Shown one piece after another: positions 699 through 22,779 of a stretch of 24,438 bases of DNA. Each line of letters opens with the position of its first letter. Positions within the stretch are counted from its first letter, which is position 1. Where the stretch lies: the IMG/VR virus record IMGVR_UViG_3300037827_000844, positions 1 to 24,438 of that record, one strand, 5' to 3'. Source of the DNA: a virus. The notes under the pieces were generated by a model that ran no database searches, was not told where the DNA came from, and saw only the letters and a program-made list of their open reading frames with translations. Both the position numbers and the translations under genes were made by a program.

Positions 699-864
699 TA
701 CGCGTCTCTTGAGCCCTGAAGACAAACAGGATATGTTAAGCGGATTGACTGGGATTGACGCATTGGATGCTTATGTTAAGATATGGATTGAAAATGGTAT
801 GCCGGATGTGGCAAACGGGAATATCGAGCCGAAAAGTAAGGGTGAATTATTGTGGAAAATCTAA
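601..864 (+). CDS. Small hypothetical protein, 87 aa
   Basis: This frame starts at an ATG at 601, inside the preceding gene, with AGGG about nine bases upstream. It continues past the other frame's stop to 864. The product is acidic and looks like a small folded helical domain ([22 protein letters not shown], then [12 protein letters not shown]). It has two cysteines but no metal-binding pattern. I do not recognise it. The final 166 bases are not covered by any other plausible rightward gene, which supports this frame as real. The start could be later, for example the Met at residue 24, which would shrink the overlap with the previous gene. Confidence 0.65.
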
Positions 865-892
865 GCAGGATATGGGCGAAACGAGGGATTGT

Positions 893-1117
893 ATGCAAAC
901 TGGACAAGTGAAATGGTTTAACGACACGAAAGGCTTTGGCTTCATTGAGAGTGGCGGCAAAGATTTTTTCGTGCACTACAAAGAAATTAAAAAGCAGGGA
1001 TTTAAGACACTTATGCAGGGTGAAAAAGTAAGCTTTAGCATTGGGCAGTGCGATAAGGGCTTGTTGGCAAAAGAGGTGATGTCATTGGCTAATCACCAAC
1101 CCGACGGAAATATTTAG
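893..1117 (+). CDS. Cold-shock-domain nucleic-acid-binding protein
   Basis: The 74-aa product is a single cold-shock domain. It begins [10 protein letters not shown], then carries the RNP1 motif KGFGFI (residues 13-18) and an RNP2-like motif FFVHY (25-29; the usual form is VFVHF). It ends near the normal length of CspA-family proteins (about 70 aa). Such proteins bind single-stranded RNA or DNA and melt RNA secondary structure in the cytoplasm. I chose the ATG at 893 because the family begins only a few residues before the GxVKWFN motif and GAGGG lies just upstream. An ATG at 872 would add seven residues, and the frame is open further upstream without a family match. It closes the rightward group that begins the window and faces the leftward cassette. 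A phage-borne copy may help viral mRNA translation or act on host transcripts; this is inference. Confidence 0.88.
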
Positions 1118-9832: not shown

Positions 9833-10162
9833 ATGAATTCGAACGAAGAAAGTGTTTTTTACAATGGTCAACAAATCCTTAAAAAGCATTTTCGAGTTTT
9901 TATCTATCATGCAGATGGTAGTGAAAAGCTTGTCAATGATTATGACGTTTATCAAAGTCATATTGCGAGCGGGGTTTGGTTTGAGACGAAAGATCAAAGA
10001 GATTCGCGAAAGAAAATCAATAAGCCGAAAAAGCCGCCAATCGAAGCGGAAAAAGAAGGCTGTAAAACAAAAAGAGAGCTAAAGGAAGCAGTAAAGGGCG
10101 AAGGAATGCCCACCCATTTATCGGATGAAATGCATTTAACGGATGAAATGACAGGTGAATAA
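9833..10162 (+). CDS. Hypothetical protein between coat and connector, 109 aa
   Basis: The start is the ATG at 9833 with AAAGGG about six bases upstream; an in-frame GTG at 9803 lies inside the hairpin and is unlikely. The N-terminal half looks folded (VFYNGQQILKKHFRVFIYHADGSEKLVNDYDVYQSH). The second half is Lys/Glu-rich and probably disordered, with a short internal repeat near the end (LSDEMHLTDEM). The stop overlaps the next start by one base. P22 has no gene here, so this is an addition to the standard order. It could be a minor head protein. No family is recognised. Confidence 0.75.
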   Translation: MNSNEESVFYNGQQILKKHFRVFIYHADGSEKLVNDYDVYQSHIASGVWFETKDQRDSRKKINKPKKPPIEAEKEGCKTKRELKEAVKGEGMPTHLSDEMHLTDEMTGE

Positions 10163-11121
10163 TGGCCTTAATCTTGCCTCCTACGTTTACTGTTAGGCAG
10201 TTTTTATTTCAAATGTACCGGCTGATCAATTCGTCTAATCCTACTATTCCATTGCATGGGGATGATGACGAACTGGCATTGCTGGTCTTAAATCAATTGC
10301 TGGAGTTTTACGCCGGAACTGGTTTGATGATAACCATAGCGAAAACCGTTAAGACAGATATAAACATTGGAATTTTTACCGTAAAATTTGTTGATCCTGA
10401 TTTTCCTACGCAAGATTTCCAATTTGAAATGGTGAATTTAACGGCAGGTTCGCCTACATTTACTGTGGCCAATGGTGCATTATATCAAGTAGGCGATACC
10501 GTAATTGGCAATGCGATTCCGCTAAATACCATAATCGGCTCGATTGTTGGAAATATAATAACCCTTAGTCAGAATGCGACGTTTACAGGTACTTTTGAAT
10601 TAACTTTTATCCGTGAAATTATTGTCCCAGGAACTGTTTTTATCAAAAATGGCCGTCTTGCGAATTTAGATAGTGCATGGCTATTATTGGATGGCGTGAC
10701 CTATCCCTTGATTATTAAATCGCGAGATGATTATCTTGCCTCATGGAAATTTAATCCCCTTCAAGGGTTACCTCGCTTTGTTATCCTTTTTCCTGATACT
10801 GATGTGGTTACTTTAAGACTCTATCCAGCACCTAGCCAATTTTTTGAGTTTCATTGCCGTGGAAAATTCCAGCTTCCAAGACTTACTAAAGATAGCGATA
10901 TGAGCAGTTTGCCGCTTTATTATATCCGCTATTTATTACTGGCAGTTGCGCGCGATGTTTCGTTGTTTAAGGGTAGAGCTGATGCTTGGACAGATAAACT
11001 AGAGGCTCGCTATCTTGAGGCGTTTGATACCATGGCTGCAACGAGTGAAGTTAATCTTTCGGTAACAGGCGAAGAGGAATCCCTCTTAAATGGCTCTTGG
11101 CGTGTTAGAAGTGGTATATAA
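10162..11121 (+). CDS. Head-tail connector / tail accessory protein (gp4 position) with inserted beta module
   Basis: The 319-aa product lies where P22 encodes gp4, the ring that binds beneath portal, and its helical N-terminus (VRQFLFQMYRLINSS, LALLVLNQLLEFY) and C-terminus (YYIRYLLLAVARDVSLFKG, LEARYLEAFDTMAA) suit that fold. It is about twice as long as P22 gp4 (166 aa). Residues 91-149 form a beta-rich module beginning VNLTAGSPTFTVANGALY that closely resembles residues 370-427 of the tail-collar protein at 18302. The start overlaps the upstream stop by one base. The assignment is by position and secondary-structure character, so it could instead be a different type of connector. Confidence 0.7.
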   Translation: MALILPPTFTVRQFLFQMYRLINSSNPTIPLHGDDDELALLVLNQLLEFYAGTGLMITIAKTVKTDINIGIFTVKFVDPDFPTQDFQFEMVNLTAGSPTFTVANGALYQVGDTVIGNAIPLNTIIGSIVGNIITLSQNATFTGTFELTFIREIIVPGTVFIKNGRLANLDSAWLLLDGVTYPLIIKSRDDYLASWKFNPLQGLPRFVILFPDTDVVTLRLYPAPSQFFEFHCRGKFQLPRLTKDSDMSSLPLYYIRYLLLAVARDVSLFKGRADAWTDKLEARYLEAFDTMAATSEVNLSVTGEEESLLNGSWRVRSGI

Positions 11122-11123
11122 TT

Positions 11124-12896
11124 ATGGCTATCGAAGCACTCCCGATTTTTTGTTACTACGATGTCCAGCGCTTCCAGCAATTTGGCGCTATGGATTGTGC
11201 AAACTGGTATGGAGTACAAGTCGATTCTGGTAAAAAAAAGCAAGCCTTATATCCCTGCATGGGACGCCAGCATGTGACCTTTCTCAATATCAACCGATTG
11301 ATTTTCAATAATGAGCCCCGGGATATTTTTCGAACAGTGAATTTCTTTTATGTCATCGATGGCACTTCTGTTATTCAAGTGGATGCAAATTACAATGAAA
11401 AGCCAATCGGTTCAGTTTCTTTAGGGGGCAAACTTTGGTTTGCTTTCCTAACAGTAGGTACAATTACCTATGCGTTGTTGACCGATCAAAAAAATATCTA
11501 TGTGATTACAGAAAATGGGACGACAGTTACCTATCAAATGATTACTGATCCGAATGCCCCAGGTGGTGCTACAACGGGGGGAATGCCTCTTTATGTCGCT
11601 GCATTTGGTAATCGTTTTGTAGTAAGTCTAGAAAATTCCCCTTTTTATTATTTGACTCGGACTAATCTTTTTAGTGATTCAGGTGATGTCACAAATTGCT
11701 TTACCGTTGCTGGCTCGCCTTTATTCAACCAAGCGTCTGGAATTGTGCGACAATTGGGAGTTCTTCATGCTCAGCTCTACATTTTTACTGATTTTACTAC
11801 TGATATTTGGGCTAATATTGCTACTCAAATCAATGTGAACGGCGTTATTACCGAGTTTCCCTGGAAGTTAAATTCTTCGTACAACTGGGATTACGGGATT
11901 GCTGACGATGATAGTCTGGATATTGATTTTGGGCGCATGGCATGGCTTGGACAGAATAAAAATGGCCTTGTGACTTTTATGAGTTCAACAGGACAACAGC
12001 CAGAGCCTATTTCTAGTCAAGCCATCAATGTATTACTGCAAAATTCCTCAAATCAATCTGGAATTAGCCCATTTATTGAACTTACTGCCGATGGTTTCCT
12101 TTACCAATATGAAAATTCCATCTTTTATCGGGTTTCAGCTGGGAATTTCATGAATTTTCAGATTCTTGACCAAGATAATTTAGCCAATTGTATTGAATAT
12201 AACTACGGAATCGGCCAATGGGAGCGTTGTATTGAACTTAATGGCGAGCGAAACCGCATTCAAAAACACATTTATTTTAATAATAAGCATTTGGTCACCG
12301 TACAAGGCGATCCCGCCATTTATGAAATGGCAGGGAATATCTATCACAATGAGTTAAGAAATGTCGGAACACCACCGCAAGCCCCTAATGCGTTTACGAA
12401 GTTTCCAATCCGTTATGAATTGGTAACACCACCTATCTTTAAAGAAGACTACTCGGAGTTTATTGATGATTACGTTCAAATTGACTTTGTTTTTGGTGAT
12501 CAAACGTTTTATAAACAAAATGCGCCGTTTCTTAATACGGTTTTTATTGTCGATGAGATATCTACCCCAAGCGTGCCCGTTTTTCTAGTCGCGGAAGACG
12601 ATACAACGTTTATCATTGAAGAGGGAACTAATACACCTACCTTTGATGATAACCATTATTTTGACCTCTTTAAGCCGCATATTGAACTCTACTACAGTGA
12701 TGATGGCGGTATAACTTATACGACTGCTGATTTGCGGGAATTCTCGCCTTTGGGGCAATATCGTTGGTTAATGCGCTGGTATGAGCTAAGCATTAGCCGC
12801 AACCGAACATATAAATTGGTTTGTGTGAGTTCCGCTCCGATTGTGATTTTGGGCGCTGTTCGAAATACCCGGCGTGCCAGTGGTGGAGCGAATTAA
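11124..12896 (+). CDS. Tail hub / packaged DNA stabilisation protein, P22 gp10-like
   Basis: The 590-aa product resembles P22 gp10, the hexameric hub beneath the connector that helps keep packaged DNA inside. Recognisable parts are DYGIADDDSLDIDFGRMAWLG and a GQQPEPISSQAI stretch (about 257-301), then a C-terminal block with LYYSDDGGITYT, LGQYRWLMRWYELSISRNRTYKL and APIVILGA (about 522-578), which matches the end of that family. P22 gp10 has 472 residues; part of the excess is an acidic beta-rich stretch at about 458-515 (FLNTVFIVDEIS, FLVAEDDTTFIIEEG). It begins two bases after the connector gene and overlaps the next start by one base. Confidence 0.82.
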   Translation: MAIEALPIFCYYDVQRFQQFGAMDCANWYGVQVDSGKKKQALYPCMGRQHVTFLNINRLIFNNEPRDIFRTVNFFYVIDGTSVIQVDANYNEKPIGSVSLGGKLWFAFLTVGTITYALLTDQKNIYVITENGTTVTYQMITDPNAPGGATTGGMPLYVAAFGNRFVVSLENSPFYYLTRTNLFSDSGDVTNCFTVAGSPLFNQASGIVRQLGVLHAQLYIFTDFTTDIWANIATQINVNGVITEFPWKLNSSYNWDYGIADDDSLDIDFGRMAWLGQNKNGLVTFMSSTGQQPEPISSQAINVLLQNSSNQSGISPFIELTADGFLYQYENSIFYRVSAGNFMNFQILDQDNLANCIEYNYGIGQWERCIELNGERNRIQKHIYFNNKHLVTVQGDPAIYEMAGNIYHNELRNVGTPPQAPNAFTKFPIRYELVTPPIFKEDYSEFIDDYVQIDFVFGDQTFYKQNAPFLNTVFIVDEISTPSVPVFLVAEDDTTFIIEEGTNTPTFDDNHYFDLFKPHIELYYSDDGGITYTTADLREFSPLGQYRWLMRWYELSISRNRTYKLVCVSSAPIVILGAVRNTRRASGGAN

Positions 12897-18301: not shown

Positions 18302-19933
18302 ATGGTAACTTTAGTTCGTGGAAGCAATCCGGTTTGGTCATACGTCGATTTAACGGGCAAACAGTTCGATGATACGTTCTATATGTTTGTTTTAGAAAAC
18401 CAAATTCCTTATATTCCAGCTACAGTATTCCATGATTCCGATGGTAATGTTCCTTGGTCTAATCCCATTCGCTTTTTTGCAAACGGCACACTTCCCATTG
18501 ATATTTATTTCGATCCCGATGTCGTTTATCGATTAGAATTTAGACAAGGATTTACGCAAGCCGATCCCCTTATTTATTTAGTAGAAAATTATGCGCCGGG
18601 CAGCTCAGGGAATACGCCGGTTGATGAAGTGGGTAGCGTTAGTGATAATCAGATAACCAATCCCCAGTTTGCATTGATTAATTTTACTAATCCTACGACA
18701 TTTACCGGGATAAGTACGCAAACAATAAATATCGCGCCAGGTTGGTTTCTAGATTTGACAGGAACAGGTAATGTTACTTTGTCACAAACGGCTTTAAATT
18801 CTAGTTTAGCGAATGCGACAAATGCACCATATGCTTTACATATACAGCTAAGCGGAACATGGAGCACGGCTATTTTAAGGCAGAGGTTCAATCAAAATGG
18901 AATGCTTTGGACAAATAATTCACAGGTTCCACTTTTTGTTTCTTGCAGTGTCACTGCATCGATAAACGGTCCTAGCCAACCCCTTACAGCTCAAATGGTT
19001 GACTCATCGTCAATAGTTCTAGGTCAATTGTTAGATATCGCCGGTTTAAATGGAACCCTCACGGAATATTTGGGAAATCCTGCTCAATTTCCAGCCACTA
19101 CAAATACTAATAATCCGCCTACTGCCTGGATAGATTTTCAAGTAATGTTACCTGTCAATAGTGATTTATTACTCACAAGCTTTCAAATTATTGCAAGTAA
19201 TTTAGCTGATGAATTCGAATACCAACAAATCAGTGTAGAGCGGGAAATTGATCATACCTATCATGTTGAATATCCGATAGTGCCCATCGGAACAATCATT
19301 GATTATTTCGGATTTACTACACCAGCTCATTATTTGCCTTGTGACAATAGATCTATTTCAAGAGTCACTTTTAATCAATTATTTTCCGTATTAACCAATC
19401 AAGAAACAGTAACTTTAACAAATGGATCACCCTCATTTACCGTAGCCAATGGTGCACTTTATGCCGCTTTGCATCCAATTGAAGGCACCGGGATTCCTCC
19501 ATCTACATTAATATCAAGTATTAGTGGCAATACAATTACAATGACAAATAATGCCACTGTTAGCGGAGCGCAGGCTTTAACTTTTTTTGCAACAGGTAAT
19601 GGGGACGGTTCGACTACATTTAATACGCCTGCTCTTATTGATAGTGTCATTGCAGCAGCCGGAGGAACATTATTGCCATCGGCTGGCGCAGGCTCACTTG
19701 GCGGCGCATCAACGGTAACGATTACGGCAAATAATTTGCCTGCTCACGTTCATAACCCTCTCAATCCAGGCTCTTCATTAATAGAAGGCGTGCTAAGTGG
19801 GGGTTCGGCTTCATTGGCAGCAGGATCAACCGTCGTAGGTACGGCTACAACGGGCACGAACACCACCTCAAATACACCCATAAGTGTAATTCAACAAACG
19901 CGATTAGCTTATAAATTGATTCGATTTGAATAA
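18302..19933 (+). CDS. Tail fibre protein with phage tail-collar domain interrupted by a beta module
   Basis: The 543-aa product starts with a virion-attachment-type domain (SNPVWSYVDLTGKQFDDTFYMF, residues 1-97). A beta-sandwich-like region at about 115-315 could bind carbohydrate. A phage tail-collar domain (PF07484 type) follows, starting PIGTIIDYFGF at 328 with LPCDNRSIS (345-353). The collar is split: after TFNQLFSVL (356-364) comes a module of about 60 residues (366-429, GSPSFTVANGALY...), then it resumes with GNGDGSTTFNTPAL. The end (LPAHVHN, then ISVIQQTRLAYKLIRFE) is typical of collar proteins. AAGGA lies nine bases before the ATG. It probably forms a receptor-contacting tail part. 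First gene of the fibre operon. Confidence 0.82.
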   Translation: MVTLVRGSNPVWSYVDLTGKQFDDTFYMFVLENQIPYIPATVFHDSDGNVPWSNPIRFFANGTLPIDIYFDPDVVYRLEFRQGFTQADPLIYLVENYAPGSSGNTPVDEVGSVSDNQITNPQFALINFTNPTTFTGISTQTINIAPGWFLDLTGTGNVTLSQTALNSSLANATNAPYALHIQLSGTWSTAILRQRFNQNGMLWTNNSQVPLFVSCSVTASINGPSQPLTAQMVDSSSIVLGQLLDIAGLNGTLTEYLGNPAQFPATTNTNNPPTAWIDFQVMLPVNSDLLLTSFQIIASNLADEFEYQQISVEREIDHTYHVEYPIVPIGTIIDYFGFTTPAHYLPCDNRSISRVTFNQLFSVLTNQETVTLTNGSPSFTVANGALYAALHPIEGTGIPPSTLISSISGNTITMTNNATVSGAQALTFFATGNGDGSTTFNTPALIDSVIAAAGGTLLPSAGAGSLGGASTVTITANNLPAHVHNPLNPGSSLIEGVLSGGSASLAAGSTVVGTATTGTNTTSNTPISVIQQTRLAYKLIRFE

Positions 19934-20322: not shown

Positions 20323-22779
20323 ATGACTTTACAGACCATAAAATTTAGTCAATTTTTATCTGGCGGCGATTTGCCCAATAATTCAGCGCTCGCCGGTTTA
20401 GCCATGGGGACTAATGTTTTATTCAATGCGCCTTGGACGTTTTTAGCGTCAGGCACGACGCTTCAGAGACCAGCCCCATCCGCCGCGACTAATTATAGAC
20501 TTCGATTTAATACTGATAATCAGGAATATGAATATTTCGACGCTGTGAGTATGGTCTGGGTTACTTTAGCCGCTGGAGGCTCTGGCGCTCCGAGCAATGC
20601 GACTTATCTATTACAAGTCCCTAATGGCGCGTTGCCAATGGCGCAGGCCATGAGCGCCTTAGCTAGCGGATTGGTTGTCAACACTACTGCGACTGGCGTG
20701 CAATCGACTATACAATTAGCAGGCACCACTAATCAAATTGGCATTACAAGCCCGGATGGACAATCCGGGAATCCTACTATTTTCATAGAGCCAAATCCCA
20801 TATTTACGGGCACTTCAGGAATTGGAATTCCAACAGGCACTACTGCTCAACGGCCTGGATCACCTATTGGAACTGAAGTAAGGTTCAATACAGATCTAAC
20901 ACAAATCGAATTCTGGAATGGTACAACATGGGTTCAATTTGCAGTTGGAGGTGGCGTCAATCCTGGAACGATTAACGATCTTGCGTATTATGCAGCGACA
21001 GGCAGTACTATTTCAGGTTTACCCACTACGGCAAGTTCTATTCTTTCAACAAATTCAGGAGGCGTACCGACCTGGATTGGAATAGTGCAAATAGGGAATG
21101 GGGGAACTGGAGTTTCAGCAGTCACAACAGTGCCAGGTACAACTGTGTGGGCGGGCTGGGATGCTAATAAGAATTTTTCGGCTAATAATTTTATCCAGGG
21201 CTATACAACCACCCTTACGGCAGCAGGAACAACCGTCTTAACCGTTGCAAGCACTGAACTCCAATATTTTACTGGAACGAGCGCTCAGACCGTGCAAATG
21301 CCATTAACGAGTACATTAGTGGCAGGTCAGCAATGGGTAATCGTCAATAATTCTACGCAATCAATCTCGATAGTTACTTCTGCATCAACAGCGATATTAA
21401 CGTTGCCCTCAGGCAATCAAGTGGTAATTACCTGCATCTTAAACTCAGGCACAACAGCCGCCTCTTGGAGTTTCAATCTAGCACTAAGTGGAGGGGTTAA
21501 TCCCGGAACAATTAATCAACTTGCCTATTATGCTAGCACCGGCGAAATAGTATCGGGTTTGGCAACTATTGCTAGTTCTATTCTTTCTTCAAATGCTGGA
21601 GGCGTTCCAACATGGATATCTACGGTTTCTATTGCAAATGGGGGAACCGGGGTCAATTCGGTGACGACCAGCCCTGTAGCGACAGCATGGGCTGGCTGGG
21701 ATGCCAATAAAAACCTGACAGCGAATAATTTTATTCAAGGGTATTCTACAACGGCAACAGCCGCTGGAACTACAGTACTTACTGTCGCCAGTACTGAATT
21801 GCAATATTTCACAGGTACAAGCGCACAAACCGTGCAAATGCCACTTACCTCAACGCTTGTTGAAGGTCAAAAGTGGATCATTGTGAATAATTCAACTCAA
21901 ACGATAACTGTTGTGACTTCTGCATCAACGACTATCGGAACATTGCCAGCATCTAGCCAAATGGAAATTACCTGCATTTTAAACTCCGGAACCACCGCAG
22001 CAAGTTGGAGTTTTAATACCACTGTGAATGGCAATCCAATTTCATCAATTGTTGGAACTGCGAATCAGGTTATTGTTAGTGGTCCGGTTGCTGGGGTTTA
22101 TACTTTAAGTTTGCCGCAATCAATAGCAACTACCTCGAATGTGACATTTGGCTCCCTTAATTTTACTACTCTTCAATGTAATATTAACGGAGGACAATTA
22201 TTAGACAATCTGGGTGGTCCTTGTATAGCCTTTAACGATCCGGGAAGTCTTGCATCAAACTTCATGCGATTTTTTGGTGGCGCAACTGGAACGGGTCCCC
22301 ACATGCAGGCCTTTGGTTCAGATCCTAATGTCACAGGAAATTTATTAGCATTGGGAACCGGGGGTTGGAATATACAAGGAGTAAGCACAAGTGGGCTTGC
22401 CCCGGCTGGACAAGTTGGGGAATTGATTCAAAGTGTTATTCCCAATGCAAGTTCAGTTACTTTTACAAGCTCAACCCCTGCAAATCTTACAAGTATTTCT
22501 CTAACAGCAGGTGATTGGGATCTTTATGGAAATATTACTTTCACAGGCACAACAATCACAACTGCTCAAATATGGATAAGTACTACATCAGCTACGGTAC
22601 CTGATAAGAGCTTACAATCCATTATTAATTCTACTGTTTCAAATCCAATTGTTGGATTGCCTGCGCCGTCAATTCCTTTGTCATTACCCTCTACAACTAC
22701 AGTTTATATTTCAGGTAGTGTTTCAGGGACAGGTACACTTATAGGAAGTGGTGGAATTTATGCTAGAAGAAGACGCTAA
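20323..22779 (+). CDS. Long tail fibre with tandem 180-aa repeats
   Basis: The ATG at 20323 follows AAGGAT at five bases; a GTG one codon earlier is the alternative. The 818-aa product is Gly/Thr/Ser/Asn-rich beta structure. Two short fibre motifs of the type RP-x-G-x-x-RFNTD-x-x-x-E-[YF] occur near residues 48-85 and 180-208 (GTEVRFNTDLTQIEFWNGTT). Two 180-aa repeats follow (about 210-569), then a GTANQVIVSG...SLPQSIATTSNVTF segment common in phage fibres (about 577-612). The C-terminal head ends GIYARRRR (from about 700, LTAGDWDLYGNITF). I infer a trimeric receptor-binding fibre. No enzymatic motif or chaperone domain was found. Confidence 0.82.
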   Translation: MTLQTIKFSQFLSGGDLPNNSALAGLAMGTNVLFNAPWTFLASGTTLQRPAPSAATNYRLRFNTDNQEYEYFDAVSMVWVTLAAGGSGAPSNATYLLQVPNGALPMAQAMSALASGLVVNTTATGVQSTIQLAGTTNQIGITSPDGQSGNPTIFIEPNPIFTGTSGIGIPTGTTAQRPGSPIGTEVRFNTDLTQIEFWNGTTWVQFAVGGGVNPGTINDLAYYAATGSTISGLPTTASSILSTNSGGVPTWIGIVQIGNGGTGVSAVTTVPGTTVWAGWDANKNFSANNFIQGYTTTLTAAGTTVLTVASTELQYFTGTSAQTVQMPLTSTLVAGQQWVIVNNSTQSISIVTSASTAILTLPSGNQVVITCILNSGTTAASWSFNLALSGGVNPGTINQLAYYASTGEIVSGLATIASSILSSNAGGVPTWISTVSIANGGTGVNSVTTSPVATAWAGWDANKNLTANNFIQGYSTTATAAGTTVLTVASTELQYFTGTSAQTVQMPLTSTLVEGQKWIIVNNSTQTITVVTSASTTIGTLPASSQMEITCILNSGTTAASWSFNTTVNGNPISSIVGTANQVIVSGPVAGVYTLSLPQSIATTSNVTFGSLNFTTLQCNINGGQLLDNLGGPCIAFNDPGSLASNFMRFFGGATGTGPHMQAFGSDPNVTGNLLALGTGGWNIQGVSTSGLAPAGQVGELIQSVIPNASSVTFTSSTPANLTSISLTAGDWDLYGNITFTGTTITTAQIWISTTSATVPDKSLQSIINSTVSNPIVGLPAPSIPLSLPSTTTVYISGSVSGTGTLIGSGGIYARRRR
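20950..22029 (+). repeat. Two tandem 540-bp coding repeats in the fibre gene
   Basis: Unit 1 (20950-21489) and unit 2 (21490-22029) are exactly 540 bases each and start GGVNPGTIN. A 35-residue stretch containing ASTELQYFTGTSAQTVQMPL is identical in both. Their DNA differs at many third codon positions, so this is an old duplication kept at protein level. Confidence 0.88.

Follow-up and report, generated by a model that had tools for sequence, protein, structure and literature searches.

The record analysed here, a virus window of 24,438 bases (the whole stretch of DNA under study), carries a P22-like structural block in which a short β-rich segment of the head-tail connector recurs in a distant tail-collar fibre. 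An earlier note regarded this segment as a surface domain exchanged among virion proteins. This raises the question of whether the segment is indeed a separable domain or a part of the folds of its hosts, and, if it is separable, whether it has passed between these two genes.

The genes of the block are arranged in the order portal, scaffold-position gene, coat, 319-aa adaptor, Hc3, 98-aa protein, three ejection-type proteins and fibres, with the portal (PF16510, E 3e-94) and the coat (PF11651) recognized by Pfam models. Among the matches listed, none exceeds 27% identity to the portal. A search with the protein P0001 against the phage collection gave no match, and no close isolate of this phage was found. 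The phage also encodes a cold-shock-domain-like protein (window 755-1117), and its 819-aa fibre gene contains a 137-nt direct repeat (72% identical, window 20941-21077 and 21481-21617), which is a section of a longer protein repeat. The features that concern us here, all on the plus strand, are the following:

10162..11121, +, head-to-tail adaptor (connector), 319 aa, assigned from its AlphaFold2 model, VIA-align matches and its place in the portal-scaffold-coat-adaptor-Hc3 order
10333..10410, +, first part of the adaptor β (fibre-dock-like) domain, residues 58-83, with modelled strands at 58-67 and 73-76
10426..10611, +, module copy 1, adaptor residues 89-150, found by HMM match and inserted in the adaptor β domain
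10624..10872, +, remainder of the adaptor β domain after the insert, residues 155-237, with modelled strands at 158-237
11124..12896, +, head-closure/nozzle-position protein, P22 gp10-like (phrog_578 head closure Hc3, E 4.1e-18), module-free in this genome
12896..13192, +, 98-aa virion protein at the tail-needle position after the Hc3/nozzle-position gene, module-free here
18302..19933, +, tail-collar fibre, 543 aa, with an N-terminal anchoring domain, a CBM4-like domain and a Collar domain with an insert
19403..19588, +, module copy 2, collar-fibre residues 368-429, found by BLASTP and HMM and inserted in the Collar domain

The two copies and their host proteins

The earlier note had correctly placed the shared segment at 10432-10608, corresponding to residues 91-149 of the 319-aa protein, with its partner at residues 370-427 of the 543-aa protein; the common region is slightly larger, extending over residues 89-150 and 368-429 respectively. 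BLASTP comparison of the two proteins aligned adaptor residues 89-149 with fibre residues 368-428 without gaps, with 34/61 identical positions (E 2e-15), and the pair had a Smith-Waterman score of 159, the highest from 1000 shuffles being 68. The pair is evident in the DNA, too, where direct repeats of 60 nt with 73% identity lie 8977 nt apart. Judged from these alignments, the adaptor and fibre segments are one homologous module, of which the whole record contains only these two copies. The two differ at one position of the motif GSP-[TS]-FTVANGALY, as had been remarked, but this similarity is not special to the pair, being a conserved stretch of the module family.

The AlphaFold2 model of the adaptor, built with 19 homologues (mean pLDDT 79.5), comprises N-terminal helices (residues 11-22 and 33-52), a β region (58-237), and C-terminal helices (252-269, 278-294 and 305-316), a layout which locates the module inside the dock-like β region. 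In VIA-align searches its core matched the phage GP4 adaptor (8jov_2, Z 11.5), the adaptor of cyanophage A4 (9k09_d, Z 11.5), T7 gp11 (6r21_M, Z 9.3) and KP32 TTPA (5mu4_C, Z 9.0). T7 gp11 combines a helix bundle with a β fibre dock and an embracing helix at its C terminus (PMC6702177), and the SU10 adaptor has the same elements, with fibre dock loops that protrude radially and grip the fibres (PMC9509320). The helix bundle broken by a β dock and the C-terminal helix are all present in our model, which shares this host fold with T7 gp11, SU10 gp11 and KP32 TTPA at about 10-14% identity. The model thus assigns the adaptor to the T7 gp11 type and gives it a fibre-dock-like domain, although in the published descriptions consulted none of these three relatives has the ~62-residue insert. 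While the helix bundle is common to P22-type and T7 gp11-type adaptors, the dock is missing from those of P22 and Sf6 (PMC6702177, PMC9509320), and the adaptor gave no Pfam match at E values up to 1. The earlier note had put the connector at about twice the length of P22 gp4, partly owing to the module. Without the module the adaptor is still ~240 aa long, so the module accounts for about half of the excess, but the fibre-dock-like β domain also contributes.

Relatives with and without the module were compared at this site, as the note had advised. Adaptor homologues were compared from 45 non-redundant contigs, of which 26 bear the module and 19 (L011-L015 and 14 further contigs) are free of it. 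The module-free adaptors, 44-64% identical to that of the window, keep both flanking parts of the β domain and show a clean alignment gap of ~76 residues between the motifs GxxDY/F and PxxxIxxGRLANL.

A comparable situation is seen in the fibre, whose residues 8-98 match a tail chain of the cyanopodophage Pan3 (9vyg_o, Z 11.5 in VIA-align) and whose N-terminal portion (residues 1-321) is conserved across the phage group. Its AlphaFold2 model is poor overall (mean pLDDT 61.1, falling below 50 at residues 304-344 and 446-543). Residues 114-304 (window 18641-19213) take the form of a CBM4/CBM22-like β sandwich in the model (Z up to 14.1), which is likely a sugar-binding part of the fibre. The Pfam match to the Collar domain (PF07484; E 3.4e-6, 27.4 bits against a 24-bit cut-off) covers positions 1-36 of the 57 in the profile and ends where the module begins, copy 2 being inserted between LFSVLTNQ and ATGNGDGSTTFN of this domain. 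In three contigs (L019, L020 and L037) the Collar domain runs unbroken as LFAVIGTI-WGVGDGSTTFN or similar; in the window and 11 others the 62-residue module stands between LFxxLT and xGxGDGSTTFN; and in two more (L025 and L026) the domain holds two modules in tandem.

The third site is in the 98-aa protein, for which a tail-needle role is inferred from gene order. The version in the window is module-free, and the module is present in the homologues from L003, L054 and L057. In five other contigs (L010 2575-3045, L027 5104-5580, L031 4326-4808, L045 5042-5491 and L056 3720-4181) this small protein keeps its N-terminal helix-like part, with a wholly different C-terminal tip domain (VTISGQGAGGWxLLPGSGQTI...), and thus its tip looks swappable.

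Fold of the module and its structural relatives

Structure prediction, another of the checks that had been proposed, yields a compact module whose six strands are the same in the two host proteins. In the adaptor it is modelled at a pLDDT of 92-96, with strands at residues 84-93, 99-101, 113-116, 123-129, 132-135 and 143-152, and in the fibre at 75-94, with strands at 365-372, 378-380, 392-395, 402-408, 411-414 and 422-429, the latter set corresponding to the former with an offset of 279 residues. VIA-align of the fibre model returned matches to its N-terminal and CBM-like domains and none for the module, so the fold of the fibre copy rests on its strand-by-strand agreement with the adaptor copy.

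The nearest solved relative is a decoration protein (8eci_1), on residues 8-79 of which adaptor residues 85-154 superpose with Z 9.4 and an rmsd of 1.6 over 69 residues at 25% identity. Searches of PDB sequences with single modules gave nothing usable. A profile of 27 diverse modules retrieved the same 8eci_1 with an E-value of 1.4e-6; this match carries a large bias term (23.8 bits) reflecting composition, yet the structural match agrees with it. A narrower module profile reached 8eci with an E-value of 0.059. Among the sequence searches of the PDB, the diverse profile alone gave a convincing match to 8eci. This relative is the decoration protein of the Arthrobacter phage Bridgette, in whose capsid dimeric cement proteins bridge hexons around the penton (PMC13033339); the fold and profile match are shared, but there it is a separate capsid protein, whereas the module considered here is an internal domain of tail proteins. 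Weaker structural matches include the Mystique tail tube (9n71_A 103-180, Z 8.0) and, at about Z 6, tail-tip proteins of lambda and chi, a tailspike, the E1 FCCH domain and the N-terminal domain of the V1-ATPase A subunit. The Mystique, FCCH and V1-ATPase matches are weak and may reflect a common small-barrel arrangement. FCCH was considered as a label for the family on account of its structural Z of ~6, but none of the 27 modules matched the Pfam E1_FCCH model, and our literature search found no paper linking FCCH to phage.

The conserved positions of the module (E89, V91, L93, F100, V102, Y108, G111, G116, I119, I125, I128, T134, G143 and F149 in the adaptor copy) belong to its core of glycines, V/I/F strand residues and a G-x-G-I-P turn, and the rest of the sequence is variable. 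They include no polar cluster suggestive of catalysis. A conserved fold core with a variable remainder indicates that the module behaves as a scaffold rather than as an enzyme.

These results bear on the reading that the module is integral to the adaptor and Collar folds, or a convergent low-complexity β sequence. Its richness in T, S, G, N and A might encourage such a view, which is nevertheless scarcely credible in light of the module-free homologues at all three sites, the compact fold predicted with high confidence, and a pairwise similarity (E 2e-15) far above that of shuffled sequences. Integral parts of two homologous folds, the outcome that the note had named as fatal to its proposal, were not what the models displayed, and the segment instead appears as an independent insert.

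Distribution and descent of the module

The module is encountered in a wide range of further proteins, namely the tail sheath of L075, the nozzle protein of L087 (Phage_nozzle family, PF25675) and the gpL-type minor tail protein of L086, the latter two with two copies each, as well as cyanophage virion proteins (phrog_5838, L084) and the tail collar of Bordetella phage PHB04. In the sheath protein (L075 3389-5746) a ~300-residue insertion holds two or three copies. The large tail proteins of L087 and about a dozen similar contigs, including L091, L094, L104, L112, L113, L124-L126 and L130, have two copies at fixed positions (108-171 and about 327-398). The module is also carried by Verrucomicrobiota, in L050 (1791-3905, Chthoniobacter) beside PATR (autotransporter) repeats, and in L051 and L052 (2-8110), where seven copies lie in a very long open frame.

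The hosts of this one domain thus include virion proteins of diverse function: adaptor, collar fibre, needle-position protein, sheath, nozzle, gpL-type protein and decoration protein. Pfam and NCBIfam contain no model for it, in PHROGs it is unnamed within large virion-protein profiles, and our literature search found no description of it. The family therefore appears to be uncatalogued in the libraries searched. The Pfam Ig, Big and FN3 models did not match the 27 diverse modules or single modules.

The note's suggestion that the module moves among virion proteins in the fashion of Ig-like domains is well supported by presence/absence pairs at three sites, the separate modelled fold and the variety of hosts. 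Its further suggestion of exchange between the connector and collar genes fares differently, there being no sign of a recent event. When the module was left out and a tree made from the adaptor cores, a branch with 100/97 support, recovered in 99% of bootstrap trees, set the carriers apart from the rest, and hence a single gain suffices to account for the adaptor module. The fibre modules, in trees of the modules themselves, separate from those of the adaptors and small proteins (99/98). Recent copying or gene conversion within this genome could be entertained from the first 20 codons of the window pair, which are 73% identical against an adaptor-fibre median of 55%, and from the nesting of adaptor modules among fibre modules in one tree. 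However, other between-genome fibre-adaptor pairings reach the same 73%, and the window pair overall (55% identical in protein, 60% in DNA) has a codon agreement of 0.47, inside the between-genome range. Moreover, the adaptor modules make up a single, old clade. Adaptor and fibre copies are seen together only in the window and L016, the fibre copy alone in four phages, and the adaptor copy beside a module-free small protein and fibre in ten. Recent copying is accordingly very improbable. Direct repeats were sought where the inserts begin and end, and those present are of chance size (5-6 nt). Since the DNA of the window pair is not unusually alike when set beside between-genome pairs, the match over FTVANGALY is conservation, and the resemblance within this genome is, as far as the sequences speak, old conservation rather than recent copying.

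Exchange at a much earlier stage is a more serious proposition, in which the fibre, adaptor and small-protein modules stem from one acquisition within the lineage and were copied from gene to gene long ago. When outside modules were added, a 99/80 branch separated 40 of the 41 modules of this phage group from 78 obtained elsewhere, with the fibre modules basal-ward, and the small-protein modules were placed among those of the adaptors. On the other hand, the alignment has only ~62 columns, a single separate clade of fibre modules was not rejected (p-AU 0.317), and the query that collected the outside modules was a consensus biased to this family, so that the outside sample is skewed. We accord this scenario a little less than an even chance.

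Probable role of the module

Taken together, the module is very probably an autonomous, six-stranded β domain of ~62 residues, inserted in frame in surface loops of unrelated virion proteins and serving an accessory surface role. The adaptor copy lies within the T7 gp11-like β (fibre-dock-like) domain and the fibre copy in a loop of the Collar domain. To judge from the host proteins and the fold relatives, the module would be displayed on the outside of the virion, with 12 copies around the adaptor ring if this is a dodecamer, as in T7 and SU10, and three on each fibre if the latter is trimeric. There it may act as an accessory contact surface, binding weakly to cell-surface material or buttressing neighbouring tail parts, and would be dispensable for assembly. 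It would have spread between phages by recombination, either illegitimate or guided by short homology, become fixed on rare occasions at loops that tolerate it, and then descended vertically at each site.

The conservation of the fold type, the decoration relative and the occurrence in virion and bacterial-surface hosts together suggest an accessory surface domain, with a role, by analogy, like that of the phage Ig-like domains. The latter (Big_1, Big_2, I-set and FN3) are likewise small β domains of several virion-protein classes, present or absent between relatives, inserted or added, and seemingly dispensable (Fraser et al. 2006 as reviewed in PMC9022992); they are inessential for tube formation or infection and sometimes raise infection efficiency (PMC9022992). 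The module, in turn, can be absent from close relatives in which the host fold is intact. It differs from them in being a distinct family by sequence, and in its in-frame position in the loops of the adaptor and Collar domains. Alternatively, both retained copies could be neutral passengers.

A more specific role in holding fibres is possible in view of the grip of the SU10 dock loops on fibres (PMC9509320). The adaptor module would then be an enlarged fibre dock loop, a docking piece particular to the fibres of this phage rather than a generic accessory domain, in keeping with its insertion inside the fibre-dock-like domain and the conserved fibre N-termini (1-321) of the group. Similar fibre N-termini nonetheless accompany module-free adaptors (L017, L018, L025, L026, L034, L037 and others), and we consider this reading unlikely. 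It is also doubtful, and slightly more so, that the module represents a virus-wide, uncatalogued family of mobile virion domains, with a decoration protein as its capsid version, and that in a phage bearing it in both adaptor ring and fibres the copies may touch or pair, coupling fibre movement to the adaptor.

Within the preferred reading of an accessory surface domain, mobile virion surface domains are known as a kind, and this family appears to be new to the libraries and literature searched. A large survey identified fibres, spikes, endolysins and DNA polymerases as the main carriers of contemporary domain mosaicism, and reported disproportionately low structural diversity in head-tail joining proteins (PMC10684548). 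The module would represent a second movable surface part, unrelated to the Ig-like domains, that reaches the adaptor, the nozzle, the sheath and the capsid decoration. Its clear before-and-after pairs, seen at three sites within a single group of phages, make the function of such an add-on testable, and a profile of the module can be used to name part of many unannotated virion proteins.
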